From positions 1 to 64,000 of the forward strand of contig CANJQC010000012.1 in NCBI GenBank assembly GCA_947476295.1: a DNA stretch of 64,000 nt, in the 5' to 3' direction. The notes under the pieces were generated by a model. That model saw nothing but the letters and a program-made list of their open reading frames with translations, was not told the DNA's origin and did not search any database. The DNA is from Planctomycetaceae bacterium (lineage in GTDB: Bacteria; Planctomycetota; Planctomycetia; Planctomycetales; Planctomycetaceae). The position numbers were made by a program, and so were the translations under genes. This document shows positions 249-21,292 of the stretch, piece by piece. How positions within the stretch are numbered: position 1 is the first letter of the stretch; each line of letters starts with the position of its first letter.

Positions 249-510
249 TGAAGCTCTCAAAGAGTCGGCCGAATCCGTGACGCCTCCTGGCGGCACTTCG
301 CGGTTGCCCCAAATCATCCGTTCACTGCTTTGCGGATGCAATCGAAACCGGATTTCCCTATCGACAATGAGACGCAAAAGGACCTCTGTTGATTGATTCG
401 CTGGCTTTCAAGCTGTTACTCTTGACTAAACGAAGGCTGCCTGGTGGTTTGCCGGCAACCAATGAGTGGTGCTGCGAATTCCCCTCAACTCAAATCGTCG
501 AAAGTGCCGC

Positions 511-2235
511 ATGACTCGAACGACAAACCTCGTCAATGTAATTGTAGTCGCTACTCGCACCGCACCAGCTCCCCGGGATGGCCTGCAGTGGATCGATTTT
601 CTTGCAGTAGGAATCTATCTGCTGGTGACGATGGGAATAGTGATCTGGTCGTCGAGGCGACAGACCACCACCAACGAGTTCTTTCTCGGCGGTCGTCGAA
701 TGCCGTGGATGGCTGTGGGGCTGAGCGTGCTGGCAACGTTGATGTCCAGCATCTCGTACATGGGCGTTCCCGGAGAGATGATCAAGAATGGTGTCGCTAT
801 GTTCGCCCAGTACCTAGCACTTCCGTTCAGCATGTCCGTCGTGCTGTTCGTCTGGGTGCCATTTTTCATGCGTCTGAAGTTCACCAGTGCCTATGAATAT
901 CTGGAGCGGCGATTTGATGCTCAGACTCGGATCATCGGAAGCATGCTCTTTCTGCTGCTGCGACTCGGCTGGATGTCGATGGTCACATACGTCGGATCAC
1001 TAGCGCTGACACAGATGGTGGGAACCCTCATTCCCGCAGGCATGATTGATCCGATTGCCAATTGGCTCGATCCGACAGCAGCGACGCCGATCATGCTGCG
1101 AGCCTCATTCCTGTACTGGATTATTGTTGCAGTCGGGCTCTCCGCAACAGTCTACGGCAGCGTTGGTGGATTCCGGGCGGCAATCTGGAACGACGTTTTG
1201 CAGTCGCTGATGCTGTTTGGCGGAACAGTCGTGACGCTGGGTTACGTTGTCTGGACAACAGGAACCGGCCCCATGGAATGGTGGAGAATTGCGGCCGAGA
1301 ACTCATCATCGCATACGAAACCCATTTTGTTCAGTTTCGATCCCACCGTCCGGATGACAGTCTTTACCGCAGCAATGCTGAATTTCTTCTGGACCATCTG
1401 CACGCATGGATCGGATCAGGTCGTGCTGCAACGCTATTTTTCGACCGCATCGCTGAAACTGGCGAGAAGGAGCTACATCGTGGCTGCAGTCACAGATGTG
1501 ACCATCGGTGTGCTGCTCGCCCTCTGTGGCCTTGCCTTGCTGTCCTTCTATCTGCAGCATCCGACCTATCTTCCGGAGGGAACCTTCGTCACGGAGAGTG
1601 GGCAGACGGTGGTGAAACACGGGGACAAAGTTCTCCCTCACTTCTTTGCACACCAATTGCCAGCAGGGATCGGGGGAGTCATTTTGGCGGTGCTCCTGTG
1701 CGATGCGATGCAGACGCTGGTTTCCGGAGTGAACAGTATCAGCGCCGTGTTTGCGGGAGATCTCTACGGCCGCCTGCGTCCCCATCGAAAACCACTGTTG
1801 AGCGACGTTGGCTTCGCCCGTTTTCTGTCTGTCGTCGTGGGACTTATTGTGACGGCACTTGCGATAAGTGTCGCATATATGGCTCAGCACTCCGGCCGCA
1901 ATATCATCGACCTGATGGCTCCGGCGTTCAACATGTTCCTAGGACCATTGGCGTCGCTGTTCCTGATTGGAATGTTTCTCAAGTGTGACGGCCGTGTGGT
2001 GAAGATTGCCGTCGCATGCAGCGTGGTGATCTCATTCTTTTGGAGCTACTGGCAAATCCTTTTCGGAACCAGTTATCAGCCGACGATTACCCTGACGACC
2101 GCAGTTCCGTACCTCGCAAGTTTCATTATCGCAGCAGTCATCAGTCGCTTTGTTCGCTCCCCGGCAGATAATCCGGGATTGGAGTACACATGGGCGGTGG
2201 TAATGCGCAGGCCAATTCCAACGAACGCCGATTAG
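511..2235 (+). CDS. sodium:solute symporter (SSS/SLC5 family)
   Basis: About 574 residues with a dozen or more hydrophobic segments. The N-terminal part has the family layout: a first segment (DFLAVGIYLLVTMGIVIW), the polar turn SSRRQTTTNEFFLGGRRMPW, then SVLATLMSSISYMGVPGE. The GGRRMPW turn and the SSISYMG stretch in the second membrane segment are typical of sodium/solute symporters (LeuT fold). It should import a solute such as a sugar, carboxylate or amino acid with sodium; the substrate is not readable. The frame opens at a GTG at 466, but the ATG at 511 (MTRTTNLV) is a better start because the protein then begins shortly before the first membrane segment. The Nramp-like gene follows in the same direction after ~130 bases, so co-transcription is possible. 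Confidence 0.85.
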   Translation: MTRTTNLVNVIVVATRTAPAPRDGLQWIDFLAVGIYLLVTMGIVIWSSRRQTTTNEFFLGGRRMPWMAVGLSVLATLMSSISYMGVPGEMIKNGVAMFAQYLALPFSMSVVLFVWVPFFMRLKFTSAYEYLERRFDAQTRIIGSMLFLLLRLGWMSMVTYVGSLALTQMVGTLIPAGMIDPIANWLDPTAATPIMLRASFLYWIIVAVGLSATVYGSVGGFRAAIWNDVLQSLMLFGGTVVTLGYVVWTTGTGPMEWWRIAAENSSSHTKPILFSFDPTVRMTVFTAAMLNFFWTICTHGSDQVVLQRYFSTASLKLARRSYIVAAVTDVTIGVLLALCGLALLSFYLQHPTYLPEGTFVTESGQTVVKHGDKVLPHFFAHQLPAGIGGVILAVLLCDAMQTLVSGVNSISAVFAGDLYGRLRPHRKPLLSDVGFARFLSVVVGLIVTALAISVAYMAQHSGRNIIDLMAPAFNMFLGPLASLFLIGMFLKCDGRVVKIAVACSVVISFFWSYWQILFGTSYQPTITLTTAVPYLASFIIAAVISRFVRSPADNPGLEYTWAVVMRRPIPTNAD

Positions 2236-2363
2236 GTGGTATCTGACGGAATCGTTCTGGCACAGCTCAGGCCGGAAGCAACAAACTGCCATGAAGATGA
2301 ATGCCCGTTGCAGCAGATTTTCGGCCCCAACACTTTCTCCGGACACTTCAGAGGCCTGACCCA

Positions 2364-3833
2364 ATGTCGGATGTTGTCGAATATGATCCATACGCTCTTC
2401 CTCGGGATGCTGTTCAGGAACCTCCCGCTTCGCTGTGGTCAGCGTTAAAGATGATCGGCCCGGGAATCATTCTCGCGGGCACAATTGTCGGATCCGGGGA
2501 ATTGTTGCTGACAACATCACTCGGCGCGAAGCACGGTTTTGTGTTTCTCTGGCTGATTCTGTTCAGCTGCGTCATCAAAGTCTTCATCCAGGTGGAACTG
2601 GGCCGTTATGCGATTTCTTCTGGTAAACCAACTCTGGGAGCGATCAACGAACTGAGCGGTCCTCGACTTGGAGCGCACTGGATTGCCTGGTGGTGGCTGA
2701 TCATGATGTTATCAACGGTATTTCAACTGGGTGCCATGACGGGCACTGTTGGCCAAGCGTTGAATCTGGCGTTCCCATCTGTCGCGGCTGGCTTGTCAAA
2801 TATTCTGGACGGGATCTTTCCGTCACTCGCTGCAGTCACTCGCGAACGCCCAGAGTTTCCCTGGGCCGTGTTTACATGTCTTGCCGCGATGGCCCTGCTT
2901 TGGAGCGGCACGTATCGGCGAATCGAGATTGTGACGACCTTTCTTGTCGTTGGAATAACGTTGCTGACAGTTTCGGCGGCCTGTGCGCTGCCTGCGACTA
3001 GGTTTCCAATTCCATGGCCCGATGTCATGAAAGGGCTTACGTTTGGTATGCCTGCGGAAGGCATTGCAGTCGCGTTCGGAGTCTTTGGAATCACAGGCGT
3101 CGGTGCAACTGAGTTGTTCTTCTATCCATACTGGTGTCTCGAAAAAGGCTATGCTCGCTACACCGGGCGGGCGGAACCCGGCCCGGACTGGGCGCGGCGT
3201 GCGAAGGGCTGGATCCGTGTGATGTACCTCGATGCCTGGGTCAGTATGATCGTGTTTACGGTTTCAACAGTTGCCTTCTACTTCATGGGCGCCACGGTGC
3301 TTCATGCCCAAGGCCTCCATCCACAGGGCAAGGACATGATCCTGACCCTGTCACGCATGTTCGTCGATACGTTTGGCAACTGGACTCAACTCGTATTCCT
3401 GATCGGTGCCGCCGCTGTGCTGTTTAAGACGCTGTATCTGTCCAGTGCCGGAAATGCGAGACTGATTGCCGATTTTCTCAGCCTCGCCGGATTTGTTTCG
3501 TATCGTGAACCTGTTCAGCGAGGGAAGGTGATTCACTGGGTTTCGCTGACGATCCCCGTCTTGGCCCTGATGCTGTTTCTGGCATTCAAGGAACCCAAGT
3601 GGATGGTGGTTGTCGGTGGGTTCGGGCAGGCTCTGACATTGCCGATTATTGCAGCGGTAACCATTTATTTTCGCTACCGTAAACTCGATCGTCGCATCCC
3701 CCCGGCATTGTTTCTGGACATTTGTATGTGGATCGCCTTTGTGGCCATTACGCTGGTGGCGATCTATGCGATGCGGGATCAGTACGGAAAGTTCTTCCCG
3801 GAGGATTCCATTGCGGCAAGCGTGACCAAATAG
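2364..3833 (+). CDS. Nramp-like transporter with non-canonical first membrane segment
   Basis: About 489 residues with roughly eleven hydrophobic segments. The N-terminal GPGIILAGTIVGSGELL aligns by eye with the first membrane segment of Nramp (SLC11) metal transporters. Canonical Nramps have a DPGN metal-binding motif there, while this protein has VGSGE. It therefore belongs to the divergent Nramp-like group, and manganese or iron transport should not be assumed. The ATG at 2364 is preceded by an AGAGG box about nine bases upstream; an in-frame ATG at 2301 would add 21 residues without a clear ribosome site. The gene is convergent with the RND pump gene (3920-7057), with an 86-base gap in which no strong hairpin was seen. 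Confidence 0.75.
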   Translation: MSDVVEYDPYALPRDAVQEPPASLWSALKMIGPGIILAGTIVGSGELLLTTSLGAKHGFVFLWLILFSCVIKVFIQVELGRYAISSGKPTLGAINELSGPRLGAHWIAWWWLIMMLSTVFQLGAMTGTVGQALNLAFPSVAAGLSNILDGIFPSLAAVTRERPEFPWAVFTCLAAMALLWSGTYRRIEIVTTFLVVGITLLTVSAACALPATRFPIPWPDVMKGLTFGMPAEGIAVAFGVFGITGVGATELFFYPYWCLEKGYARYTGRAEPGPDWARRAKGWIRVMYLDAWVSMIVFTVSTVAFYFMGATVLHAQGLHPQGKDMILTLSRMFVDTFGNWTQLVFLIGAAAVLFKTLYLSSAGNARLIADFLSLAGFVSYREPVQRGKVIHWVSLTIPVLALMLFLAFKEPKWMVVVGGFGQALTLPIIAAVTIYFRYRKLDRRIPPALFLDICMWIAFVAITLVAIYAMRDQYGKFFPEDSIAASVTK

Positions 3834-7109: not shown

Positions 7110-8417
7110 TCATTGAGTTGGCGACGATTCACTCTTTGGTGCAGTCGTCATTGGCTCGCGTATTGTAACGCGCGTGCCGTTCGCCAGTTTGGATTGGCCG
7201 CTGGTCACTACGATGTCATTGGGGTCCAGTCCACCAGTCACTTCAACCCATCCGGAACCTTGTGTGCCGATCGCAATCTCCACTTCTTCCGCCTTGTCAT
7301 CCCGCACCCGAAAGACTTTGACGACGCCAGCAAATCGAGTGACGCACTCCAGTGGAACAGTCATGGCTTTGTCCGCCGTTCCCACGACGACTTCCGCTTT
7401 CACAAAACCGCCATGTCGCAGCCGATGTTCCTGATTTGGAACGTGGGCTTCCACATCGAAGGAGCGGCTTTGTGGATCGATGACGGGACTGATTCTGGCG
7501 ACCTTCCCGGGAAACACTTCATCCGGATACGCTTCAACTCGAACTTCCACATCCATGCCGAGATCCACTTGTGACAGATAGCGTTCCGGCACCATCACAT
7601 GCAGTTTCAGGACGTCGTCCACGATCAGCTCATAGACTGGTGTTGACGGAAACGCCCGAACCATTTCCCCGACCGATGTCATTCGCTGCGAAACGACAAA
7701 CTCGCTTACACCTGCTGGCGGGACTGGCGTGCTCAGCACAGGGGCTATAACCTTCGTTTCGCTGAGCTTCTGAAGGGCCAGTGACAACATTGTTTCACGA
7801 TGCTTGACCGCAGAGAGATTTGTCCTAGCGTTGATGCGAGCCTGTCGCAGAGCTGCGTCCGCGACCTTGAGATCCGTCTCAGCCTGTTCCAGCGACCGTT
7901 GGTCGCCGGCCTTTGCTTCCGAGAGTTTCTTTTGTCGTTCAAACTGCCGCTCAGCATTCTCCCACAGCAATCTCGCACTCTGCACCGACGGCAATTGCTC
8001 TATATCAAACTCACTGGTGGGTGGTTCAGTCAGGTCCAGTCGCGACAGTTCCTGTTCGAGCATCTGCTGAGCCTCATCGACCGACAGTTGGTAGTCGGTG
8101 TCATCAAGCTCAAGGAGCGTTGTCCCGGGAGGAATCCGATCACCCACATCGAAACCCGCAAAAACAACACGCCCTTCCACCTTTGGAGTCACCGTCACTT
8201 GCTCGAAGCCGCGGAGGGAACCTACCACTGAGACTCGACGCTGCACGTCACGCACTTCCACGGCAGCCACAGTCACTGGTACCGGAATCGCTTCTTCCTG
8301 AACAGTCTGTATCTTGACCTTCTTTGCGTTGCACCCTAGGCAACTGGCAATACAGACTCCACCAAGCCCCAGACAAGCGACGGCAAAATGCCTGAGGACC
8401 CAGCCACGCTTAAGCAT
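7110..8417 (-). CDS. RND efflux periplasmic adaptor (membrane fusion protein)
   Basis: 435 residues. The N-terminus has two basic residues, a hydrophobic stretch and cysteines in ASCLGCNAKK, consistent with a lipoprotein anchor, though the exact lipobox is ambiguous. A lipoyl-like half follows (GRVVFAGFDVGDRIPPG), then a coiled-coil hairpin at about residues 115-215, a second lipoyl half and beta-barrel (VEVRVEAYPDEVFPGKVARI) and a membrane-proximal domain. These are the features of HlyD/AcrA-type adaptors that link an RND pump to an outer-membrane channel. The start codon overlaps the end of the truncated TetR gene by eight bases, and the RND pump follows after 52 bases, so translation is probably coupled along the operon. 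Confidence 0.9.
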   Translation of the reverse strand: MLKRGWVLRHFAVACLGLGGVCIASCLGCNAKKVKIQTVQEEAIPVPVTVAAVEVRDVQRRVSVVGSLRGFEQVTVTPKVEGRVVFAGFDVGDRIPPGTTLLELDDTDYQLSVDEAQQMLEQELSRLDLTEPPTSEFDIEQLPSVQSARLLWENAERQFERQKKLSEAKAGDQRSLEQAETDLKVADAALRQARINARTNLSAVKHRETMLSLALQKLSETKVIAPVLSTPVPPAGVSEFVVSQRMTSVGEMVRAFPSTPVYELIVDDVLKLHVMVPERYLSQVDLGMDVEVRVEAYPDEVFPGKVARISPVIDPQSRSFDVEAHVPNQEHRLRHGGFVKAEVVVGTADKAMTVPLECVTRFAGVVKVFRVRDDKAEEVEIAIGTQGSGWVEVTGGLDPNDIVVTSGQSKLANGTRVTIREPMTTAPKSESSPTQ

Positions 8418-8928
8418 TGTTCCCTCGAATCTCAGCAGCAGCCAACACGCCGTGGAAGACTATGTCGCTGACATTCTTGCATTGAGCACACAGAGACTTT
8501 GTTCGTCCGGAAAAGTGGTTGGTAAAAATGGTGCCATAGAGCAAATCGGAAATGACTTCGATGATTCGATCCACAGGGACGTCCCGTACCTGCCGGTCGC
8601 TGATCATGTCGCGAAACAACTGCCTCCATGGCTCCATATTTGCGTCGCGATGGACGAAGTAGGTCGGCTTCACGCGATCACAAAAACTTGCTCGTTCCTG
8701 AATGATCAGCTCAATCGCGTCCGGGTGTTGATCAAAATATTTGAGGTAGGCCATGATCCCTAATTCGATCCGCTCAATGGATGTACATGCCGTGGACGTG
8801 GCCTCATCGACTGCCAGTCTCAGTTGCTGCATTCCTTCATCCACGGCCGCGAAAAACAATTCTTCCTTGGTGGAGTAATAGCGATACACAGTCCCTTTCG
8901 CCACCGGTTCCATGAAACGAGACTTCAC
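8410..8928 (-). pseudogene. TetR-family regulator lacking the N-terminal part of its HTH domain
   Basis: 172 residues from a GTG at 8928. The protein begins inside the TetR signature: PVAKGTVYRYYSTKEELFFA is the recognition-helix segment that normally lies 30-50 residues into a TetR protein. Helices 1 and 2 of the DNA-binding domain are missing; the rest looks like a complete ligand-binding domain ending in AAAEIRGNNA. The start overlaps the stop of the upstream gamma-synthase gene in a GTGA arrangement, and the missing segment was not found in the other frames just upstream. TetR-adaptor-pump is a common self-repressing layout, so a deletion probably removed the 5' end and promoter of the regulator. 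The remaining protein should not bind DNA normally; a dominant-negative or new role is possible but speculative. Confidence 0.75.
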
Positions 8929-10400
8929 GCATTACGGAGCGCACGTTCAAAGCGGGTTTGAAGCTCTTCGATTGGTTCGGTGCCGACGCTGATTCGCAGC
9001 AACCAGCGGGAGACTCCGCATTGTTCGACGAAATCCAGTTCTGTGAAGTGCGCCAGGATCGTATACGGACAACAGAGCGTAAAATTCGTTCCCAGATTCG
9101 GGCCTTTGCAGACTTCGAGGTGATCAAACACAAGGGGCGTCGCCACGGCCGGATTCTTCAACACGATGGATAAGAGTCCGCCGTTGTGATCGGCCGAATG
9201 TTGATTCATCCAGTCGAAGCGATGCGAATCCAGACTCGGATGATAAACCGCCGCAACCTGTGGTTGCTCAATGAGCCATCCGGCCAGCTGATTGGCATTG
9301 CGATTAATTGTTTCGACTCGAGCTCGCACGTCGCGGGAGTTCTTTTCCAGAACGTCCACGTCAACATCGACCAGCAATTCTTCGAAGTTGTCGGCGAGCG
9401 CAGTTCGCAGCCAGTCCGCATGGCGGCTTTCCGGATTAAGAGTCACTGCACCGGCCAGCACATCACCATAGCCACTGAAGTATTTTGTCAGACTCGTGAC
9501 GACGACATCGGCAAACGGCAATACATCGTGATTGATGCAGGCGGCGAGCGTGTCATCGATCACCAGCAGAAATCCGTGCTGATCCGCAAGCTGCCGAAGT
9601 GCGTGCAGGTCCAGCGAAGTCAGCAGCGGATTCGTTGTGGATTCACACAAGACAGCCGCGATCTTCTGCTTGCTGAGCAATTCTGTAAGCTGCTTGAGAT
9701 CGTCGCGACCGCCGACCGGATAGAACCGCACATCTGCTGGCGCGAAGCGTTGCTGGATCTTGAGCGTATCGACGTAGGGAAATCCAAACTGGACACTGGG
9801 ATTCGCTGAGTCGTGTTGTCGCAAGGCACGCCAAACGGCTGCGACCGCCGCCATGCCGCAGGGATACAGCCAGATTTCGGCCTCGGGGTTTGTTCGCAAC
9901 TCGCGCAATCGCTGCCGGACGGTTTGCCGAGCCGGCGTTTCAGAACATTCAACTGCCTGACCGTTCAGAATCAACTCCGCCGCGCGCGAGGTCAGTACTT
10001 CGCCGGCATGCTGCCAGTACTCACGCAGTCGTGAAAAATCGTCTGGATCAACCGCCACACCACAGGCAGTCTGTTTTGCCAATGCGACAAGTCGAGCGCT
10101 CCGCCCGCCGCGCCACACAACATAGGCCAGGGCTCGCTGAGCTGCCGCCGTGCTCGGGAAAATCAGACCTCCGTTTTCGCCACCAAAGACTTCGTGACAC
10201 AGTCGTCGCACATACGGATGCAGACAGAATCGCGGGTACGCAGCCTGAAGGCGACTGACTACTTCCGCCGCGCCTTCTTCATACTTGATGTTGTGTTCCC
10301 ACAGGGGCAAGGAGACCGAAACGGCATGTGGCGAATCAGGCATCGGCAGGCCAAGATGCTCGGCTTTCCAGTGAGGTGATTTCAACAGATCGATGGGCAT
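8925..10400 (-). CDS. cystathionine gamma-synthase, Str2-like (Cys/Met PLP enzyme)
   Basis: 491 residues, about 100 longer than bacterial MetB. The N-terminal extension carries LGLPMPDSPHAVSVSLPLW and YPRFCLHPYVRRL, which I recognise from the fungal Str2 type of cystathionine gamma-synthase. The C-terminal half is a fold-type I PLP enzyme; the probable Schiff-base lysine is in VVTSLTKYFSGYGD, near residue 305. The expected reaction joins an activated homoserine with cysteine to give cystathionine. It lies 64 bases downstream of cysE, which fits a cysteine-to-methionine route. The C-terminus (LLRISVGTEPIEELQTRFE) looks complete, and the stop overlaps the GTG of the truncated TetR gene. A gamma-lyase or another member of the family is an alternative. 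Confidence 0.8.
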   Translation of the reverse strand: MPIDLLKSPHWKAEHLGLPMPDSPHAVSVSLPLWEHNIKYEEGAAEVVSRLQAAYPRFCLHPYVRRLCHEVFGGENGGLIFPSTAAAQRALAYVVWRGGRSARLVALAKQTACGVAVDPDDFSRLREYWQHAGEVLTSRAAELILNGQAVECSETPARQTVRQRLRELRTNPEAEIWLYPCGMAAVAAVWRALRQHDSANPSVQFGFPYVDTLKIQQRFAPADVRFYPVGGRDDLKQLTELLSKQKIAAVLCESTTNPLLTSLDLHALRQLADQHGFLLVIDDTLAACINHDVLPFADVVVTSLTKYFSGYGDVLAGAVTLNPESRHADWLRTALADNFEELLVDVDVDVLEKNSRDVRARVETINRNANQLAGWLIEQPQVAAVYHPSLDSHRFDWMNQHSADHNGGLLSIVLKNPAVATPLVFDHLEVCKGPNLGTNFTLCCPYTILAHFTELDFVEQCGVSRWLLRISVGTEPIEELQTRFERALRNA

Positions 10401-10464: not shown

Positions 10465-11274
10465 TCAGATCGAATCGCCCGCTGCGATTTCATGGTCCAT
10501 GTCGAGCGCCGGATTGTCTGAGCACGGTTTTCCGACAACGACGGCAGGGACACCTGCGACGGTGCAATGCGGCGGCACATGTCTCAGAACGACGCTGCCC
10601 GCGCCGATTTTGGCGCCTTCGCCGATTTCGACGTTGCCCAGAATTTTTGCGCCAGCACCGATGAGGACTCCTCGACGGACTTTAGGATGACGATCGCCTG
10701 ACGATTTTCCGGTACCGCCGAGAGTGACTTCATGGAGCAACGAAACATCGTCTTCAATGACGGCTGTTTCACCGATGACGATTGACGTTGCATGGTCCAT
10801 CAGAATGCCACGTCCGATTCTGGCCGCCGGATGAATATCGACGCCGAATATCTCGGACATTCTGTTCTGCAGGTAAAGCGCCAGCAGTTCACGTCCTTCT
10901 CTCCACAGCCAATGTGCGATGCGGTAGCCAATGAGGGCATGAACGCCTTTCAGAAACAACAGCGGCACGAGGTTACATGTCACGGCAGGGTCGCGTTCCC
11001 GGACGGCACGGATGTCTGCGCAAATAGCATCCGCAATCGTCGAGTCGTTGGTCATCGCGTCCAGCATGATTTCGCGGAGCTGCATTGCTGACAGCGTGCT
11101 GGAGGCCAGCTTGCCGGCCAGATGATAGCTGACGGCATCTTCGAAGCGTTCGTGGTTGAGCACCGTAGCGTGCAGGAAACTGGCGAGCATCGGTTCCGAA
11201 GCGGCTCGTTCAGACGCACGTTCCCGGATCGATGACCAGATGCAGGTTTCGGACTGATTCGTTTTGGAAGGCAT
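10465..11274 (-). CDS. cysE: serine O-acetyltransferase
   Basis: 269 residues. CysE makes O-acetylserine from serine and acetyl-CoA, the first step of cysteine synthesis, in the cytoplasm. The N-terminal helical domain runs through residues ~1-140 ([20 protein letters not shown]). It is followed by the left-handed beta-helix of hexapeptide repeats with the conserved [19 protein letters not shown] and [20 protein letters not shown], including the catalytic His/Asp region of the family. The length agrees with CysE (~270). The frame can be extended to a TTG at 11340, but the ATG at 11274 gives the normal N-terminus. It is the first gene of the minus-strand run that continues into the gamma-synthase, so O-acetylserine supply and transsulfuration appear to be expressed together. 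Confidence 0.93.
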
Positions 11275-11462
11275 GGTCTGCTGGCTGTGTATTACGGGGA
11301 TTTGGAAAGGAATAGTGACTGAAAGTGAAACGGCGGGCAAGTCCTGACAAGATCACTCGCCGCCAGTCTGGTCGTTCGGCAATCGTGAGAGTATGATGAT
11401 TCCAAGGGGCATCGTCACTGTATCTGATGCCAAGATATCCAGCAAAACGCAAAGGCGAGGTT

Positions 11463-11969
11463 ATGAAAAATCACATTCTGCGTTCCGCGATGATGTTTGC
11501 AGCCGGGGCATTTGTCATGGGTGCGTCGGCGTACTTCTGGCCTCAACCGGAAATGAAAGCCGCAGTTGCCAACGGAAATGACAAATTCACAATGTGCACC
11601 GTGCCGTTATCTGAAGTGGGCGAAGTGGAAGCTGTCTTTGTCCTGAATCATCTGACAGGCGTCATCACGGGTGGTGCTATTTACAACCAGACTGGCAAAT
11701 TTGGATACCGCTTTCTGCATAACGTGGCGGCGGATTTTCAGACGTCCGCCAAAACGCCGGAACCAAAATATGCCATTGTTTCCGGCACCGCAAATTTGCG
11801 GGACACGGGTGGTGTGCAGCCAGCGTACGGAGTGATCTATATCGGAGAACTGTCTTCTGGTGCAGTCATCGCTTATGGTTTTGCGCGTCCAAACTCGCGC
11901 AATGTCGGCACCGTAATGCCGCTGGTGAAGATGGACTACTTCAAGTTTTCTGAGTCTGTGGGCCAATAG
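11463..11969 (+). CDS. hypothetical secreted or membrane-anchored protein
   Basis: 168 residues from the ATG at 11463, which has a good ribosome site (GGCGAGG) directly upstream. The N-terminus MKNHILRSAMMFAAGAFVMG is a signal peptide or anchor. The rest has no membrane segment and is rich in Gly, Ala and aromatic residues (LTGVITGGAIYNQTGKFGYRF, shortened here, and AYGVIYIGELSSGAVIAYGF). I do not recognise a family; it resembles small exported proteins that planctomycetes carry. It stands alone, divergent from cysE, about 160 bases ahead of the TPR gene. A longer frame from 11427 lacks support. Confidence 0.7.
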   Translation: MKNHILRSAMMFAAGAFVMGASAYFWPQPEMKAAVANGNDKFTMCTVPLSEVGEVEAVFVLNHLTGVITGGAIYNQTGKFGYRFLHNVAADFQTSAKTPEPKYAIVSGTANLRDTGGVQPAYGVIYIGELSSGAVIAYGFARPNSRNVGTVMPLVKMDYFKFSESVGQ

Positions 11970-12128
11970 AGACTTTCCGGCAGAAACAACTAGTGGATCG
12001 ACGGAATCGTTGTTAGCACTTCAATCGGTCAAATATGCTGCGTCCCTGCGCTTGCGTCATTTGGTAAGCGTGTCCTATCGGTATTCGTTTTCTGACGACG
12101 TTGAATTCTGTTCGACAAAGGATCCTGC

Positions 12129-15100
12129 ATGGACGGCTTACAAATCTTCACCATGCTAACCCAAGGCCTGCCCCGCACGTTTATTTGGCGCGTCAGCGTG
12201 GTGAGTGCGGCGTTCGGCACGATAGCCGCAGCATTGGTTGCGGGGCTTTGGCTTCTGAATACTGGCTCGGCGGTCGCTGAAGAACCCGTTCTGGAATTCG
12301 TGGAGGGTCTGCGCGAACGACAGTATCTCGATACGGCTCTGGAGTACCTCGAAGTCGCTCAACAACGATCCGAACTGTCTGCCGCGATTCGCGATGTGAT
12401 CGATCTTGAGCGGGCAAAGACATTGCAGGCGATGGGGGCGACCTCGCGTGTTCCCGAAGACCGCGACTTATACCTTCAGCAGGCGAAAGATGCACTTCAG
12501 AAATTCACGAGTACACACAACAATCATCCGCAGGCGGCGTTTGCGAATTCGATGCTTGGTGAACTGTTACTGGAACGCGCTCGTACGCTGATCTGGCAGA
12601 TGGAAGGTGCCGATTCACCGGACAAGCGTACCGAATATCAACTGGCGGCTCGCAAACTGATCGATGAAGGTCAGGTGATTTATCAGACGGCGAACGATCA
12701 GTACAAAGCAGCCTTCGAAGCCTTCCCAAACTTCATCGATAAAACAAAAGACGAAGATCAGTTCAACGCACGGCAGGACGTTGAGGCAAAATATCTGCGC
12801 GCCTGGTTCTACCTGATTCGTTGTACTTATGAACGCGGGCAGACGTTTGATAAGGGCACCGAAGAACGCAAAAACACGCTCGTTACCGCTGCCAATCTTT
12901 ACGAAGAACTTCACACTCGCTATCGCACGAATCAGATCGGTCTTCATGCCCGTCTGATGATGGGGAAGTGCTATCAGGAGCAGGACGACCTCAGCCGCGC
13001 GCTGGGGATTTACAACGAAATGCTGGGGCATAAGTCTGAAAGTGAATCTGTCGAAATGCTTAAGGGCATCGCGCTGCATTACCGGCTGATTTGCCTGAAC
13101 GATCCACAGCGGAATGACCATCAACTTGTTCTGCAGGAAGCGACCGTGTGGCTGCAGGCGAACAAGGCAAAGGTCTCGACTCCGTACGGTTTGGGAATCT
13201 TGTGGGAACGAGCGATCGCGGCGGAAAAACTGGGTGAGGTACGTGAGCTTGCTGATAACGATCGCGAGACGACACTGCGATTGGCCCTGAACGATGCGGT
13301 GACGGTGGCCCGCTATCAGGGACCGTTTCGTGAACCGGCGAACGCAATGAGTCGCCGGATTAAGGCTGCGCTGGGCGACAAGGATAAAGAACCGAAGGAT
13401 TTTGCCTCTGCGTTCGAACGTGCCCGCAACATGATCGCTCAGATTCAGGCGTTGAGCGACGACGTGACCGCTGCGGCGGATGAGAACGAACGGGCTCAAA
13501 AGAAAGTCGCTCTCGAAACGCATCTGAGAGAAGTCGGTCGGCTGCTGCAGATGGCTTTAGACCTGCGGGATTCTGACAGCGATCTAAAAGCGGTGGCACA
13601 AGCGAGGTATCTGCAAAGTTTCGTGATGCTGAAACTTGGACGTCCGCTGGATTCGATGATTCTGGCCCGGCATTGCATGATTCATGACCGTGCGGCGGAC
13701 CCGGACACGGCGTTGAATGCGACAGAAATTGCGATGGCGGCAGCGGTGGCGGCGTGGAACATGGCTCCGGGGAGTGATCGCGATTTTGAAACCCGCGCGA
13801 TGAAAGATGTGTGTCAAAAGATTCTGGAACTGTACCCGCAATCCGCTCGCGGTGGCGAAGCGAGAATGCGGCTGGGCACGGTTTACCGCACCATGAACGA
13901 ACCCCTGGAAGCGGCTAAGTGGTATCTGGAAATCCCGGAAACCGATCCGCAGTATTCGTCGGCTCGCATGAGTGCCGGTCAGTCGTACTGGGCAGCATGG
14001 ACGCAGAAGGCAGCGGTCGCGGCTAAAAATCCAGAAGACGCTCAAACGCCGCCGGCAGAAATGCAGGCATGGAAATCTGAAGCGCGCAACCTGTTGACTC
14101 AGGGTATTCAGATCACGCGCGAGAGAGTGGGCCCGGATGCCAAACCGTCCGATGAACTGGTCGCAGCGGAGGTTTCGCTTGCGAGTATCATGAATCTGGA
14201 CGGTGATTTTCCGGGAACGATCGAGCGGCTTACCAGTGGCGATGCAAACTCGGTTGTTGCAGCGATTCAGGTCGCTGAAGGCGCTATTCGCCCCGATGAT
14301 GGTATCCAGACTAAGTCATTTGCCGGGCTGACCTATCGGTTGCTGCTGCGAGCTTACGTGGGGACTCAGCAGATTGATCCAGCTCTTGGTGTGATGAAGC
14401 AGCTTGAGAACGTCGGTGGTCAGGATATCCTGGCGGTGTACACCCAGTTAGGTATGGAATTGCAGGAAGAACTCAAGCGACTGAAACTATCCGGCGACAA
14501 TGAGCGTCTGGCCCAGACCCGCGATTCGTTCGAGAAGTTTCTGCAGAAAGTTTACGAATCGCGAAACAAGTCAGACTACAACTCATTGCTGTGGATCGGT
14601 GAAACGTACTTTGGCCTTGGTCAGGGCGTTGCCAGCGATCCCACCGCTGCGGCTGGCTACTATTCCAAAGCCGCCGATGCGTATAACGAAATCAACAGTG
14701 GTGGTCTGGCGACTGAAGGAAACCGCACGGCCGTGCAGTTGCGGTTGGCTCGCTGCCGTCGCCAGCAAAAACAGTTTGACGAAGCGTTCCGCATGTGCGA
14801 TGAGATCCTGAAATTGAATCCGAACGCGCTGGACGCTCAGTTTGAAGCGGCTCATGTGCTGAGTGATTGGGGATCAGAAGGCGAACCGGCGAAATTGCTT
14901 GATGCCATTCAAGGGGTCAGAACGCCGGAAGGTAAAGCCGGACACGTCTGGGGATGGTCACTTATGACGCGCAAGTTGCAGCAGACATTGCAACGCGATC
15001 CGACGCCGGAAATTCGAGACCGCTTTATAGACGCCCGATATCAATTGACTAACAGCCGCCGTCGATATGCGAAGACGAACGCTCCGGGCAGTGATAAGCA

Positions 15101-16007
15101 AATTCAATCCGCACTGGCAGAAATCACCAGTTTCGTCCAGGTGTATCGAGATCTGGATGATGCGTCGTTCGCGAAGTTTGATCGACTGTATCAGGACCTG
15201 CAGTCGGATCAGGGCAAGGCACCGGTCCCGCTCCAACGCACCTCTGTCGCCGAGGGTGCGGTCGCAGGATCTGGAGTTGTTCACGACATGGCGAATGAGA
15301 ATCCGGTGGTAAGTTCGGTATCCCCCGCGACGGAGTCGAAGCTGGAAGAATCCGGTGGCAACGGGCTGCTGCTTGGGGCGTTGATTACGTGTCTGTCGAT
15401 CGGGATCGCTGGTGTTTTTTTTGTCTTCATGCGGAAGCCGAACAGACGACCCAGAATTCCGGGATCCGACAAGACGCCAAAGTTTTCGGCTTTCACAACC
15501 AGCGAGCCGACGGCGATGTTTCCGGAGCCAGGAGACGATCCAGGACCGGGACTGGATTTTTCCAGACTTGCGACCGTGGCCACTGTACCGAAACGGACTT
15601 CTTCCCGGCCAGCAAACGCTTCAACCGCTACTCGCGCTGCGAGTGCCGCAGGGGTAAGTCCAGCGAATGTTCCGCGAACCAGACCGGTAGCGCCGCCCGC
15701 ACCCACAGCTGACGCGGCAGATCGTCAGGCAGTTCCAAAACCACGATCACGACCTGCGCCAGCGGCAGATGGAGGCGGAGCATCCTCCGCTGCGCCTGCT
15801 GAGGCCTCGCGTCCAGCAGCTCCGCGTCCGCCCGCAGCGCGACCTGCCGCACCAGCCGAAGGTCCAACGCCATCAGGAATTCAACGACCGCCTGCCAATA
15901 AACCAGCGGCTCCACGTCCGCCCACTCAACAACCACCGCCCACACCTAAACCACCAGCGGCGCGAACACCGCAACGAAAACCACCAGCGCCACCGGATAG
16001 CAAATAA
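12129..16007 (+). CDS. large TPR-like exported protein with C-terminal membrane anchor and Pro/Ala tail
   Basis: 1292 residues. The N-terminal hydrophobic segment (residues ~20-50) ends in TGSAVAEEP, a probable signal-peptidase site. From ~50 to ~1040 the chain is helical with repeated TPR-like motifs, for example ALEYLEVAQQ, AANLYEELHTRY, ALGIYNEML and AFRMCDEILKLNPNALDA. A single membrane segment (LLLGALITCLSIGIAGVFFV) lies near residue 1080. The remaining ~190 residues become a low-complexity Pro/Ala/Arg tail. The likely topology is a long extracytoplasmic TPR arm with a tail on the cytoplasmic side. It heads an operon with a second repeat protein, ExbB, two ExbD and a small protein, which suggests a scaffold for a proton-driven envelope complex. 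The function is inferred from context only. Confidence 0.85.
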   Translation: MDGLQIFTMLTQGLPRTFIWRVSVVSAAFGTIAAALVAGLWLLNTGSAVAEEPVLEFVEGLRERQYLDTALEYLEVAQQRSELSAAIRDVIDLERAKTLQAMGATSRVPEDRDLYLQQAKDALQKFTSTHNNHPQAAFANSMLGELLLERARTLIWQMEGADSPDKRTEYQLAARKLIDEGQVIYQTANDQYKAAFEAFPNFIDKTKDEDQFNARQDVEAKYLRAWFYLIRCTYERGQTFDKGTEERKNTLVTAANLYEELHTRYRTNQIGLHARLMMGKCYQEQDDLSRALGIYNEMLGHKSESESVEMLKGIALHYRLICLNDPQRNDHQLVLQEATVWLQANKAKVSTPYGLGILWERAIAAEKLGEVRELADNDRETTLRLALNDAVTVARYQGPFREPANAMSRRIKAALGDKDKEPKDFASAFERARNMIAQIQALSDDVTAAADENERAQKKVALETHLREVGRLLQMALDLRDSDSDLKAVAQARYLQSFVMLKLGRPLDSMILARHCMIHDRAADPDTALNATEIAMAAAVAAWNMAPGSDRDFETRAMKDVCQKILELYPQSARGGEARMRLGTVYRTMNEPLEAAKWYLEIPETDPQYSSARMSAGQSYWAAWTQKAAVAAKNPEDAQTPPAEMQAWKSEARNLLTQGIQITRERVGPDAKPSDELVAAEVSLASIMNLDGDFPGTIERLTSGDANSVVAAIQVAEGAIRPDDGIQTKSFAGLTYRLLLRAYVGTQQIDPALGVMKQLENVGGQDILAVYTQLGMELQEELKRLKLSGDNERLAQTRDSFEKFLQKVYESRNKSDYNSLLWIGETYFGLGQGVASDPTAAAGYYSKAADAYNEINSGGLATEGNRTAVQLRLARCRRQQKQFDEAFRMCDEILKLNPNALDAQFEAAHVLSDWGSEGEPAKLLDAIQGVRTPEGKAGHVWGWSLMTRKLQQTLQRDPTPEIRDRFIDARYQLTNSRRRYAKTNAPGSDKQIQSALAEITSFVQVYRDLDDASFAKFDRLYQDLQSDQGKAPVPLQRTSVAEGAVAGSGVVHDMANENPVVSSVSPATESKLEESGGNGLLLGALITCLSIGIAGVFFVFMRKPNRRPRIPGSDKTPKFSAFTTSEPTAMFPEPGDDPGPGLDFSRLATVATVPKRTSSRPANASTATRAASAAGVSPANVPRTRPVAPPAPTADAADRQAVPKPRSRPAPAADGGGASSAAPAEASRPAAPRPPAARPAAPAEGPTPSGIQRPPANKPAAPRPPTQQPPPTPKPPAARTPQRKPPAPPDSK

Positions 16008-16137
16008 AATGTGGAACGACGCCTCCCCGGTGGCTAACCGTGAAGGATTTTGGAATGGAGAACGTGGATGCAGCGAAAGTTCGCCTATCACACTAAAACC
16101 AACATCGATCTGGATTCTGCAAAAAGGTTATCAGCCT

Positions 16138-17223
16138 ATGACTTCTCAGTATAAACGGTTCCACAATCTGGTCGGTCCTGTGCTGCTCGCCGCTCTGACG
16201 GTTGCGACCGGCAGTGCGGGGACAGTGTTCGCCGTCGATCAGGTGACGAAACGCAGTGATCGAGTCACGTTTCGGGGTGAGATCACGGCGATGACGATCG
16301 AATCGGTAACGATTACGCTGTCAAACGGGCAGACTCAAGTTATCCCCGTTTCGGATATTTACAGCGTGCGATTTGATATGGAGCCGTCGCTGCTTGCTCA
16401 GGCGCAGTCCAACGAACATAGTGGTGCCTTGGATGTCGCGCTGGAAAAACTCCAAACGATGCAGAAGGAATACAGAGGAGACGACAAGCGTGTCCTGGCG
16501 GATGTCAAGTTTCTGATCGCTCGCACGATGGTGAAACAGGCGCTGGCAGATCCGGCGAGAGTGCCGGATGCCATAGCGGCGATTCATAAATTCCGCGAAG
16601 AAAACAGAACCAACTTTCGTTATTTCGAAGCCTTGTTGCTGGAATCCTCGCTTGCCACCGGCGAAGACGCTCAGACGCTGCTCAAAGAAGTTCAGGCGGC
16701 GCCTGCCAAGGGATATCAACTGCAGGCGGGCGTGCAGTTGGGGCAATTGTTGCTGGCCGGCAACGACGCCGCAGGAGCCTTCGTGGCATTCCAGCAGGTC
16801 ATCGAACAAAGTACGGGAGATCCGGCGTCCTCGACGGCTCATTTCGACGGTCTGTTGGGAAAGGCAAAGTGTCAGCAAAAGCAGGGGCAGATTGATGACG
16901 CCATTGCCACGCTGGATGACGTCATCAACAAGGCGTCGGAATCCGAATCGCGGACTCTGGCGCAGGCGTGGGTTCTGAAAGGCGACTGTTTCCGGGCTAA
17001 GAGTCTGCCAAAAGACGCCCTGATGGCTTACCTGCATGTGGATGTCCTGTATCCTTCGGAACCAGCATTGCACGCGGAAGCACTGTTCCATCTCGTGTCT
17101 TTGTGGGCTCCGGCAGGGCATCAGGACCGCTCAGACGAAGCAATGGCTAGGCTTTCAACCAGGTATCCCAACAGCCCGTGGGCAAAACAGGCGGGCACGA
17201 TTCCTCAGGCAGCGGTCAATTAA
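16138..17223 (+). CDS. exported tetratricopeptide-like protein
   Basis: 361 residues from the ATG at 16138, preceded by an AAAAAGG box. The frame is open back to 15769, but that part overlaps the TPR gene upstream and reads as low-complexity sequence, so it is not coding. The protein has a signal peptide (LVGPVLLAALTVATGSAGTV) ending near VFAVDQ. A short beta-rich segment follows (VTITLSNGQTQVIPVSDIYS), then TPR-like helices (ALDVALEKLQTMQKEY, AFVAFQQVIEQSTGDPASS, ALMAYLHVDVLYPSEPAL). It sits between the large TPR protein and ExbB and probably acts in the same periplasmic assembly. No enzyme motif was seen. Confidence 0.82.
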   Translation: MTSQYKRFHNLVGPVLLAALTVATGSAGTVFAVDQVTKRSDRVTFRGEITAMTIESVTITLSNGQTQVIPVSDIYSVRFDMEPSLLAQAQSNEHSGALDVALEKLQTMQKEYRGDDKRVLADVKFLIARTMVKQALADPARVPDAIAAIHKFREENRTNFRYFEALLLESSLATGEDAQTLLKEVQAAPAKGYQLQAGVQLGQLLLAGNDAAGAFVAFQQVIEQSTGDPASSTAHFDGLLGKAKCQQKQGQIDDAIATLDDVINKASESESRTLAQAWVLKGDCFRAKSLPKDALMAYLHVDVLYPSEPALHAEALFHLVSLWAPAGHQDRSDEAMARLSTRYPNSPWAKQAGTIPQAAVN

Positions 17224-17376
17224 CGGCTTTTCACAAATCCAAATTTCTCGCGTCTTGTGCTACCCTTTGATGAGTGACGAGACGCCTTGAAGTCTCTACA
17301 GTCCCTATTCTCAACTTCCTGACATTTCTCACTGGACACGTTTGCCCCTTCGAGGACATCCCGGAGATTTTTCGAA

Positions 17377-18216
17377 ATGCGTAATGTCTCTGCATCACAC
17401 GCCCGATATGTTGGACGCAATTCCGTTCTGTTTCTGCTTCTCGCACTGACCGCTGCGTTGATCTGGCCGGCGTTTGGCAGTTCCGCTCGCCTGTTGGCCG
17501 ATGAAGCCGATGCAGCAGCGGCACCTGCGGCCGACGCCGCCGCCCCCGCCGCAGAGGGTGCAGCCGTGACACCGGTGCAGTCCCGCAGCTTTTTGGCGTA
17601 TATCGCCCGAGCCTGTGGCTGGTTTTGGGGACCGGCGTTCCTGCTGGTGTCGTTCATTCTGGTCGCGTTGATCATGATGAATTTGCTTCAGGTGCGCCGC
17701 GATGTGCTCCTGCCGTCGCAGTTCGTCGAAGAATTCGAGCAGAAGCTCAATGCGAAAGACTTTCAGGGGGCGTACGAATTCGCCCGCAGCGATAGCTCCT
17801 TTGTCGCTCGCGTCCTTGCCGCAGGCATGGGCCGCCTGAGTCGTGGTTATGAAGAAGCCGTCGAAGGAATGCAGGAAGCCGGTGAAGATGAAAACATGGC
17901 GCTGGAACATCGCTTAAGTTACGTGGCTCTGATCGGCACGATTGCTCCGATGATGGGGCTGATGGGAACGGTGCAGGGCATGATCTCAAGCTTCGACGTG
18001 ATCGCTCAGTCGACGGTGTCTCCGAAGCCGTCCCAGTTGGCTGACGGGATTTCTACGGCTCTGGTGACAACGCTGATTGGTCTGGTACTGGCCATTCCGG
18101 CGATGGTATTTTACGGCATTCTGAAGAACAGAATTCAGCGACTGGTGCTGGAAATAGGCATGGTTAGCGAAGGCCTGATGGGGCGATTTGCCACCGTGGG
18201 CAAGAACAAGACCTAA
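17377..18216 (+). CDS. MotA/TolQ/ExbB proton-channel protein
   Basis: 279 residues. After a signal-like first segment and an Ala/Pro-rich linker, a membrane segment lies near residues 75-98 (FWGPAFLLVSFILVALIMMN). Two more C-terminal segments follow with the family signature (LIGTIAPMMGLMGTVQGMI and ALVTTLIGLVLAIPAMVFYG). This is the TolQ/ExbB layout with an N-terminal extracytoplasmic extension, common in planctomycetes. ExbB pentamers carry the proton path that drives ExbD. Two ExbD genes follow at once, and the two repeat-protein genes lie upstream, so the channel probably energises an envelope complex containing them. Iron transport by TonB is not indicated because no TonB or receptor gene is present. 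Confidence 0.92.
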   Translation: MRNVSASHARYVGRNSVLFLLLALTAALIWPAFGSSARLLADEADAAAAPAADAAAPAAEGAAVTPVQSRSFLAYIARACGWFWGPAFLLVSFILVALIMMNLLQVRRDVLLPSQFVEEFEQKLNAKDFQGAYEFARSDSSFVARVLAAGMGRLSRGYEEAVEGMQEAGEDENMALEHRLSYVALIGTIAPMMGLMGTVQGMISSFDVIAQSTVSPKPSQLADGISTALVTTLIGLVLAIPAMVFYGILKNRIQRLVLEIGMVSEGLMGRFATVGKNKT

Positions 18217-18251
18217 TCTCGGACACGACTCTTTGTCACCAGAACCATCTC

Positions 18252-18734
18252 ATGAAATTCAAACAGACCAATGTCACTCCGATTGAACTTGACATGACGC
18301 CGATGATCGACGTCGTGTTTCAGTTGATTACGTTTTTCATGCTGATCAACAAGTTCGAGCAGGCTGAAGCTGATGAACGCGTGACCCTGCCGAAGGATCA
18401 GCTGGCTTCACCGCCAGCCGTGCATAGGCAAAACGCATTCCTGCTCAACTTCGGCTATATGCGAGACAAGGACGGGAAAATTCTGGACACCACGCCATAT
18501 TTTTTCTTTGGTGATGAGAAGATCGAACTTGCAGCGCTCCGGCCTAGGCTTCGTCAGGAATCGCAGTATTTTGAAACAATCGGGACCGACTTTGCCGAAA
18601 TCACCGTAGAGATCCGCGCGGATGCCGACGTTCCCACTGGGTTGGTTCAGGAGCTGATTCAGATGTGTCAGGAAGAAGGAATTGCATTTCAGCGGTTTGC
18701 TCTGAAGGCGACGCAAAAGGCGACAGAGTACTGA
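18252..18734 (+). CDS. ExbD/TolR family protein (first copy)
   Basis: 160 residues. The N-terminus carries the ExbD hallmark LDMTPMIDVVFQLITFFML, a single membrane helix with the conserved aspartate (TPMID) that takes part in proton-driven rotation within the ExbB pentamer. The C-terminal periplasmic domain has the expected alpha/beta character (EITVEIRADADVPTGLVQEL, then GIAFQRFALKA). It lies 35 bases after ExbB and 51 bases before a second ExbD. Two different ExbD proteins per ExbB suggests a heterodimer of ExbD subunits, as is found in other planctomycete and proteobacterial systems. Confidence 0.93.
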   Translation: MKFKQTNVTPIELDMTPMIDVVFQLITFFMLINKFEQAEADERVTLPKDQLASPPAVHRQNAFLLNFGYMRDKDGKILDTTPYFFFGDEKIELAALRPRLRQESQYFETIGTDFAEITVEIRADADVPTGLVQELIQMCQEEGIAFQRFALKATQKATEY

Positions 18735-18785
18735 TTCTGGCTGGTGGTGCGGGGTTGTATTTTTCGGTGATTGGCTGCACTCGAC

Positions 18786-19289
18786 ATGAAGTTCCGTAAT
18801 CGATCGAATCTCAGCAAGATCCAGCTCGACATGACGCCGATGATTGACGTCGTGTTTCAGCTGATCATTTTCTTCATGTGTACTCTTAAGGTTGTTGAGC
18901 CCGAAGGCGACTTTGACATCAGCATGCCGCTGGGAGCACCCACGGCGGGTGCCGTGACGGACGCTGAACTGCCTCCATTCAAAGTTCGAATGGAGTCAAA
19001 CGAGAATGGTGAATTGGTCGCGCTCAGCTTCAACGGAGAGCCCCTCGGCGGCGGTGAAGCAGCGATTGGCAAGCTGAATTCCAGCGTCTTCCGCAGTATT
19101 ACGGCCCTGAAGGCGGTCGGCGACGATCAGTTGGAAAAGCAGGAAGTCGAAATCGATCCGGATTACGACCTGAACTATCGCTACATCATCAATGCGATCG
19201 GCGCATGTTCCGGACGTCTGGGGCCAGGCGGGATTCGTATTTCCTATCTGCAACGCATCAAATTCGCTCCGATCCGGAAGAAACAGTGA
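18786..19289 (+). CDS. ExbD/TolR family protein (second copy)
   Basis: 167 residues from the ATG at 18786; a TTG at 18771 would add five residues. The N-terminus repeats the membrane signature LDMTPMIDVVFQLIIFFMC, with the conserved aspartate. The periplasmic part is longer and different from the first copy, ending with RYIINAIGACSGRLGPGGIR. The two proteins are related only in the membrane helix, which argues for distinct roles rather than a recent duplication. The stop overlaps the GTG start of the next gene (GTGA at 19286-19289), so the small downstream protein is translationally coupled. Confidence 0.92.
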   Translation: MKFRNRSNLSKIQLDMTPMIDVVFQLIIFFMCTLKVVEPEGDFDISMPLGAPTAGAVTDAELPPFKVRMESNENGELVALSFNGEPLGGGEAAIGKLNSSVFRSITALKAVGDDQLEKQEVEIDPDYDLNYRYIINAIGACSGRLGPGGIRISYLQRIKFAPIRKKQ

Positions 19290-19684
19290 GTGACTCAACG
19301 CAGATCACCTTACCACAAATCGAATCAGGATCGGCTCCAAATGTCGTGCTTTGTTCCACGGACCTGATGCTCATCAGTTCTGTTGGCGGTGCTGCGGAAG
19401 CTCGCGGTTTCACGTTTACGTCGGTCAATACTCTCCAGGCAGCCATCGACAATGCCACAACGGCGGAAAGTATTGTCTGCCTAGATCTCTCCGCTCCCTT
19501 CAGCGACCCACACGGCTTTGCGACATCTGCCTCCCCCGAATTGCTGGCTCGCTCAATCGCATTTGGTCCGCATGTTCATACCGCCAAACTCGAAGCCGCA
19601 CGCGATGCCGGCATCGGTCGAGTGATGAGTCGCGGACAATTCGTCTCCGGCCTCGCGACCCATTTCGGATCGTCAGACAGATAG
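19286..19684 (+). CDS. small receiver-like protein coupled to exbD
   Basis: 132 residues from a GTG at 19286, which overlaps the exbD stop by four bases. The fold reads like a response-regulator receiver: beta-strand NVVLCSTDLMLISSV, a helix, then SIVCLDLSAPF (the position of the phospho-acceptor aspartate), then SIAFGPHVHTAKLEAARDAG and VMSRGQFVSGL. The acidic pair normally found after the first strand is absent, so phosphorylation is doubtful. I recall similar short proteins in planctomycetes but no known function. Its place at the end of the ExbB/ExbD operon suggests a cytoplasmic accessory or regulatory role. Confidence 0.7.
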   Translation: MSDSTQITLPQIESGSAPNVVLCSTDLMLISSVGGAAEARGFTFTSVNTLQAAIDNATTAESIVCLDLSAPFSDPHGFATSASPELLARSIAFGPHVHTAKLEAARDAGIGRVMSRGQFVSGLATHFGSSDR

Positions 19685-19783
19685 CAGCTCTCCCGCCGGA
19701 TGGATATTCACGCCCGCGTGACGAGCAGGTGTGCCCGATGCAAACGATTATGGGTCGCTCGGCGTTGTTCAGATGCCTGCGTT

Positions 19784-19913
19784 CTTAATCATAATCTTCA
19801 TCTTAATCATAATCGATTCCGAGCAAACCTGGCGACCGGGTCTGCCGTCCTCCGCACGACTCTGTCTGCAGAACGGGATTAAGATTAAGAGTAGGATTAA
19901 GATTATGAATTAG
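19784..19913. repeat. imperfect inverted repeat of TTAATCATAATC-type units
   Basis: Left arm 19784-19821 is built of CTTAATCATAATCTTCAT-like units; right arm 19873-19913 is built of GATTAAGATTAAGAGTAGG-like units. The arms are about 40 bases long, roughly complementary and separated by ~50 GC-rich bases. The element fills the gap between the convergent receiver-like gene and aroA, touching the aroA stop region. It could form a large stem and act as a bidirectional terminator, or be an interspersed repeat; I have seen similar AT-rich units in other planctomycetes. Confidence 0.6.
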
Positions 19914-21209
19914 TCACGACAAACTTCCGGCACACAGCGCGGCGAGGTCTTCGAAGTAGCGTGGATACGTCTTCGCGGTGCAGCCGGGGTCAAGAATCTT
20001 AATGCCCGGCACTTTCAGTCCGAGCAGTGAAAAACTCATCGCCATTCTGTGATCGTCATACGTCTGAATTTCAGCGGGCCGGGGAGTTCCCGGATGAATC
20101 CGCAATCCGCCGGCCAGTTCATCGGCCTGAATTCCGGCGCGTGTCAGTTCCGCCACTACGGCTGCGATGCGGTCCGTTTCCTTGTGACGCATATGACCTA
20201 CGTTCCGTATCGTGGTGGGAGAATCTGCGAAAACCGCGACGACGGATAATGTCTGAGCCGTATCGCTGATCGCATTCATGTCAATGTCGATGCCGTGCAG
20301 TGGACGACCGGTCACCGTGATGCGATCACTTTCCCATGACACTTCGCACCCCATTTGTTCCAATGCTGCCGCGAATCCAACGTCGCCCTGCAACGCATGT
20401 CGGGACAACCCAGTGACGGTCACAGAACCGCCGGTCACAGCTGCCGCTCCGAAGAAATAGCTGGCGGCGGAGGCATCCGGTTCGATGTCGTAGGTTCCTC
20501 CGCAATACGGCCGTGGCTCGATAAGGAAGGACGACAGATCGTCGGGATACTGCACGCTGGCACCAAACGCCTGCATCATCTGCAGCGTCATTATGACGTA
20601 TGGTTTGGAGACGAGATCACCTTCAACGGTGACATGCACTGGTTTACCACATGCGGGTGCGGCCATGATCAGGCTGCTGAGAAACTGACTGCTGATTTCA
20701 CCGTGGATTGACGTGGCACCGCCCTGCAACGTACCGCCTCGGCCGTCCACGACAATCGGAGGACAGTCACTGTTGGGCTTTTCGAATCGAATGTTCGCGC
20801 CGAGTGGTTTGAGAGAACGTACAAGATCACCGATCGGACGTTGTCGCATGCGTTCGACACCGTCCAGTCGGTACGTCCCGCGCCCCAGCGCACAGAGAGA
20901 GGTCAGAAATCGGATGCTGGTACCGCTGTTTTCCAGCCACAAGTCGGCAGACTCAGCGGGAATACGACCACCCTGACCATGCACGGTGCAGCGACAGGTG
21001 GCGAGATCCTGATCAACGGTGAACCCCAGCCGTCGCAGACTTTCAACCATCACACGGGTATCGTGACTGTCGAGGACACCGGTCATTGACAATGGACCAT
21101 CCGCCAACGCCGCCATCACCATCGCGCGATTTGTGATGCTCTTGGAACCCGGCGGTCGGATCACTCCGCGAACCGGCGTGGTCACGGGTTGCAGTTCAAT
21201 AAACGTCAT
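19914..21209 (-). CDS. aroA: 3-phosphoshikimate 1-carboxyvinyltransferase (EPSP synthase)
   Basis: 431 residues from the ATG at 21209 ([15 protein letters not shown]). The enzyme joins shikimate 3-phosphate and phosphoenolpyruvate in the shikimate pathway to aromatic amino acids. Family motifs visible: [20 protein letters not shown] near the N-terminus, [18 protein letters not shown] (the glycine-rich PEP-binding region), [16 protein letters not shown], and MRHKETDRI with the conserved Lys/Glu/Asp/Arg near the C-terminus. The length is normal. The frame extends to a TTG at 21248, which is less likely. The upstream neighbour on the same strand is ftsH, 84 bases away. Confidence 0.94.
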
Positions 21210-21292
21210 GAGTTTCGTGGGTTGGACAATAGGAATAACTTGCTGCAATCGGTTGCTAGGTACTACGAGTTCTACAACAACGGAAGTCGAAT

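Follow-up and report, generated by a model that had tools for sequence, protein, structure and literature searches.

A TetR-type regulator without helices 1-2 between a cysE-PLP gene pair and an RND efflux pump in a planctomycete genome

Results

Gene content of the locus

The window, a stretch of 64,000 nucleotides from a draft planctomycete genome (252 contigs, 99% complete), carries five same-strand genes in the order cysE, a gene for a PLP-dependent enzyme, a TetR-type ORF, an RND adaptor gene and an RND permease gene, and the successive gaps between them are 64, -4, -8 and 52 bases (Table 1). Elsewhere in the window (48957-49198), a DNA repeat of about 122 bp is present in two head-to-tail copies that are 89% alike.

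Table 1. Features of the pump locus and its flanks in the window
Feature	Position	Strand	Remarks
Left flank: sodium:solute symporter and NRAMP-like transporter	466..3833	+	Pair kept in genus relatives, with other next neighbours there
RND efflux permease, 1045 aa	3920..7057	-	Intact
RND periplasmic adaptor (MFP), 435 aa	7110..8417	-	Intact
Truncated TetR-family regulator, 172 aa	8410..8928	-	Part of the recognition helix and the effector/dimerisation domain; without helices 1-2
Rearrangement junction	8896..8925	-	Homology to relatives from V9-K11 of the TetR-type ORF (8904-8896); PLP gene ends at 8925
PLP-dependent Cys/Met-metabolism-family enzyme, 491 aa	8925..10400	-	BesB/CndF are the nearest curated models; putative new gene upstream of the pump operon
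cysE, serine O-acetyltransferase	10465..11340	-	Start at codon 23 (ATG) possible
Right flank: 180-aa protein, TPR protein, TPR2, ExbB, ExbD, ExbD, small protein, aroA, ftsH	11427..23347	.	

Both the permease and the adaptor of a tripartite RND system are present. The permease is full length and of the HAE type (ACR_tran, 891 bits, residues 5-1009), with RND_permease_2 as its best NCBIfam model (848 bits, below the subfamily cutoff of 1250), and the adaptor matches RND_mfp (TIGR01730) at 182.7 bits, above the cutoff of 94.9. No outer-membrane factor gene is adjacent; a TolC-type gene on contig C5 is 50% identical to the gene beside the pump copy in G006, a genome of the same genus.

The first-pass annotation named the overlapped upstream gene a cystathionine gamma-synthase, which holds at the superfamily level but not below it, as the protein scores 105 bits against TIGR02080, for which the cutoff is 504.6. 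Its best curated model is BesB (230 bits, below the cutoff of 800), CndF is also among the best, and from its sequence the enzyme appears nearer BesB/CndF than the standard gamma-synthase. Its N-terminus is extended by about 150 aa, and the closest relatives in the genus likewise keep its gene beside cysE. A tie of the pump to sulfur metabolism had also been proposed. This idea found no backing, since what connects the two is adjacency, Rfam detects no riboswitch or other known RNA regulator near cysE, and the PLP gene is no clear gamma-synthase.

The TetR-type ORF lacks the first half of its DNA-binding domain

The N-terminus of the 172-aa product reads MKSRFMEPVAKGTVYRYY (first codons GTG AAG TCT CGT TTC ATG GAA CCG GTG GCG AAA GGG), and TetR homology starts at V9-A10-K11. 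Pfam TetR_N is matched only over profile positions 28-47 of 47, at residues 9-28, with 22.1 bits against a cutoff of 24, and the complete helix-turn-helix (HTH; helices 1-3) of the TetR family is absent. The earlier reading that the regulator begins inside the HTH signature was therefore correct, as was the observation that its GTG (8928-8926) overlaps the TGA of the PLP gene (8927-8925) as GTGA. Helices 1-2 are not encoded upstream of the ORF in any of the three minus-strand frames, and no orphan or displaced TetR N-terminus was found elsewhere in the 99%-complete genome. An alternative start further upstream, which might have restored a full HTH, was rejected because an in-frame stop lies just upstream and the preceding sequence is the PLP gene. 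MAFFT aligned MKSRFMEP to helix 1, and this alignment was judged spurious. The regulator GTG has no Shine-Dalgarno-like sequence; such sequences are present at the adaptor ATG and the RND GTG.

The AlphaFold model of the product (pLDDT 85, core >90) is disordered up to residue 11, from which point it is helical, and its best Foldseek matches among solved structures are TetR-family proteins (TM about 0.7). The predicted structure contains the all-helical TetR-like C-terminal effector/dimerisation domain. The model suggests that this effector domain could still fold and that the DNA-binding domain could not; from the missing parts we infer that the remnant is unable to act as a normal DNA-binding repressor.

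Most related regulators are full length

Among 170 genomes of the family, 50 related places were found in 38 genomes, and because 47 of the 50 regulators keep the whole HTH (match beginning at residues 1-22), the short form represents a real loss and is not normal for the family. The three exceptions are the window gene (match from residue 54) and one gene each in G204 and G215, which by coordinates match the Schlesneria MAG contigs L078 and L079. In the nearest relatives (G006, G028, L066 (G106), L067, G126 and G087) the regulator has 216-235 aa and a complete HTH. These full-length relatives, together with the failure to find the missing half in any frame or elsewhere in the genome, bear out the earlier statement that the usual promoter and helices 1-2 have been lost.

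The operon with a full-length TetR gene is seen in L066, G126 and G087 and partly in G006. Where the contig is long enough, the usual order is TetR, adaptor, RND, and an outer-membrane factor gene often precedes TetR; for more distant members, 13 of the 19 upstream regions read have a recognisable TetR gene before the adaptor. The first-pass annotation had advised a search in relatives for a full-length TetR gene between the PLP gene and the adaptor. Such a gene does precede the adaptor, but the genus relatives were not seen with the pump behind the PLP gene. No other genome searched has the same short regulator kept in frame or the TetR/PLP junction of the window. Near the intact pump operon of G106, a tyrosine-recombinase-like gene and a gene like that of a DUF932-type plasmid protein (L066:2644-7779) suggest that this copy lies on a mobile element.

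The pump lies between reshuffled flanks

From the PLP gene onward, the right flank is collinear with the same-genus genomes G012 and G001. Both share cysE and the genes for the 180-aa protein, the TPR proteins, ExbB, the two ExbD proteins and the small protein, where the G001 contig stops; in G012 the collinearity reaches aroA and ftsH. A simple inversion model, built on the gene order of G004, was dropped because these two genomes showed the right flank to be collinear. In genus relatives with a readable 3' side of the PLP gene, no TetR, adaptor or RND gene of this kind lies beside it. The gene that usually adjoins the PLP gene is larC, which in G012 lies directly behind it and points towards it. 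The larC gene of the window genome (90% identical to that of G012) is on contig C131, where DNA homology to G012 reaches the larC stop (its 3' end) and then ends, and the contig end beyond is a fragment of a Tn5-type transposase gene (L166:1-650). On the left, the symporter/NRAMP-like pair is common to the window, G017 and G004/G015, and the gene next to it differs among the three.

The pump thus lies between two reshuffled flanks, and its joining to the PLP gene broke the TetR gene. That the joining was a regulator-breaking rearrangement is argued by the collinear right flank, by the location of larC elsewhere beside a transposase fragment, and by genus relatives not having been seen with the pump here. 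The loss of the TetR N-terminus claimed in the first-pass annotation is consequently upheld by the full-length relatives and the lineage-specific breakpoint behind the PLP gene. However, it was not a deletion in place at a shared locus, since the genus relatives were not seen with the pump there; the pump moved to this position. The transposase fragment suggests, but does not prove, that a mobile element had a part in the rearrangement.

The TetR/PLP junction is known from one assembly, and it might be an assembly chimera that fuses, inside the TetR gene, two unlinked stretches from a single genome or from two. The draft state of the assembly and the uniqueness of the junction among the genomes searched are compatible with such an error, and contigs L078 and L079 show that contexts can differ at mobile-element ends in this group. 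Yet the window junction contains no repeat or mobile-element end, nor the IS66-type terminal repeats of those contigs, GC is even across it, gene content and identity place both flanks in this genus, and the end of larC independently marks a rearrangement behind the PLP gene. A chimera is thus distinctly unlikely. RNA folding at the junction is ordinary (z 0.83).

A second truncated regulator in Schlesneria

Contigs L078 and L079 carry the same pump family; the RND of L078 is 89% identical, and the L079 contig stops inside the adaptor. Homology of their regulator to that of L066 begins at the same lysine codon as the window breakpoint, the breakpoints being within about 5 bp of each other, and the reading frame is shifted further on. 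The truncated regulator is directly abutted by a 191-bp IS66-type mini-element (L078:1044-1234, L079:4822-5012) with the ends GTAACCGTTCACACC and GGTGTGAACGATTAC, and nearly the same ends bound an IS66-type transposase gene in L079 (2301-3895). To the left of the mini-element the two contigs have different DNA, which means that the element moved or that the contigs are misjoined there. Because L066, which has 94.6% DNA identity to L078, retains an intact regulator, the Schlesneria loss is separate from that in the window.

The closeness of the two breakpoints may be chance. A more far-reaching idea is that the recognition-helix codons of TetR are a recurrent breakpoint, that two lineages lost the regulator independently while keeping the pump, and that the cysE-PLP operon of the window lineage has gained the pump as a stable third module. 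We regard this idea as unlikely; if true, it would mean a hot spot for mobile-element targeting and repeated selection for an unregulated pump.

Constraint on the remnant and the pump

In a codon model, omega was 0.24 on the remnant branch compared with 0.064 in the background (LRT 6.7), and omega = 1 was not rejected for the remnant (LRT 2.4). The raised value is treated as suggestive, since synonymous sites are near saturation and the branch of the L066 regulator is also raised (0.20). On the same lineage, omega is 0.05 for the adaptor and 0.014 for the RND permease, so that adaptor and pump are under strong purifying selection while the remnant looks relaxed. The remnant still has an open frame of about 160 codons, and no more than three otherwise invariant positions carry a private change, a number that is not exceptional; the remnant is therefore either young or partly kept.

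One possibility is that the short protein has a function of its own as a new regulator or ligand-binding protein, for instance one that heterodimerises with, and titrates, a full-length TetR paralogue of about 45% identity encoded on contig C68 of the same genome. The open frame, the intact and confidently modelled effector domain, the presence of the paralogue and the translational overlap with the PLP gene would all fit such a role. Relaxed constraint on the remnant branch, a GTG that has no ribosome-binding site and a short form that is kept in frame in no genome searched make it very unlikely. Most likely, the remnant is a decaying gene.

Transcription of the pump genes

From cysE to the adaptor, the minus strand contains no terminator-like site. 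Three promoter-like matches fall in the same interval, no clear excess over shuffled sequence (mean 1.8). The likeliest outcome is that the upstream operon captured the pump, because the five genes share a strand and are closely spaced and this terminator-like signal is missing; the simplest consequence, which we consider likely from the gene arrangement, is read-through transcription of the pump from cysE and the PLP gene. One promoter-like match lies inside the PLP gene and may be a local promoter, which would count against this explanation.

Conversely, since the original operon has lost its upstream region, the pump might be silent, hardly expressed without a promoter of its own and bound to decay. 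That outcome is very improbable indeed, given that adaptor and RND genes are intact with their own ribosome-binding sites, that both have low omega values on this very branch, and that an operon on the same strand lies upstream with no terminator-like site before the adaptor.

Discussion

We consider it probable (roughly 0.7) that a rearrangement cut the TetR gene and joined the pump operon behind the PLP gene, that the pump is read by read-through from cysE-PLP, and that the remnant is decaying. The ancestral operon presumably had the order (outer-membrane factor), TetR, adaptor, RND. Comparison with relatives shows that the break fell inside the recognition-helix codons of TetR and that what remained was fused directly to the final codon of the PLP gene in the cysE-PLP operon. 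It also shows that HTH helices 1-2 and the promoter/operator region upstream were lost, with the PLP gene in their place. Adaptor and pump, having kept their own ribosome-binding sites, would then be read from cysE-PLP without their original local control.

We found no description of this locus in the literature, although well-studied systems offer parallels. As in the window, a TetR repressor gene lies beside adaptor and RND genes in mexZ-mexXY, acrR-acrAB and the amrR and mtrR systems; in the planctomycete relatives, however, the regulator gene is upstream on the same strand and not divergent. When a TetR repressor such as MexZ is inactivated, the neighbouring pump is expressed more strongly, and substitutions in the HTH of MexZ reduce or abolish DNA binding (PMC12057347), so loss of the HTH in the window would likewise be expected to free the pump, although here the regulator was cut by a rearrangement and not by point mutation. 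Loss of NfxB leads to overproduction of MexCD-OprJ (PMC7064769). Recombination of an IS upstream of acrEF raises acrEF expression (PMC4462101), a case in which, as in the window, a rearrangement related to mobile elements gives a pump a new upstream context; at the window junction no IS is left, and what now lies upstream is a metabolic operon. The Schlesneria contigs share with the window the pump family and a regulator cut at nearly the same codon, but differ in the mini-element at the cut, the frameshifted remnant and the unrelated upstream sequence.

What distinguishes the window from known repressor losses is only that a single rearrangement took away the HTH and also placed a metabolic operon next to the pump. 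The principle is not new, since freeing of efflux pumps through loss of a local repressor is well known from pathogens, and the window pump operon with its decapitated TetR regulator is a clean example of this known phenomenon. It is also a comparatively well-documented natural case of regulator decapitation and operon fusion, in which relatives reveal the flanks, the neighbour that was lost and how strongly each gene is constrained. That another genus seems to have lost the regulator independently suggests that this planctomycete pump can do without local control.
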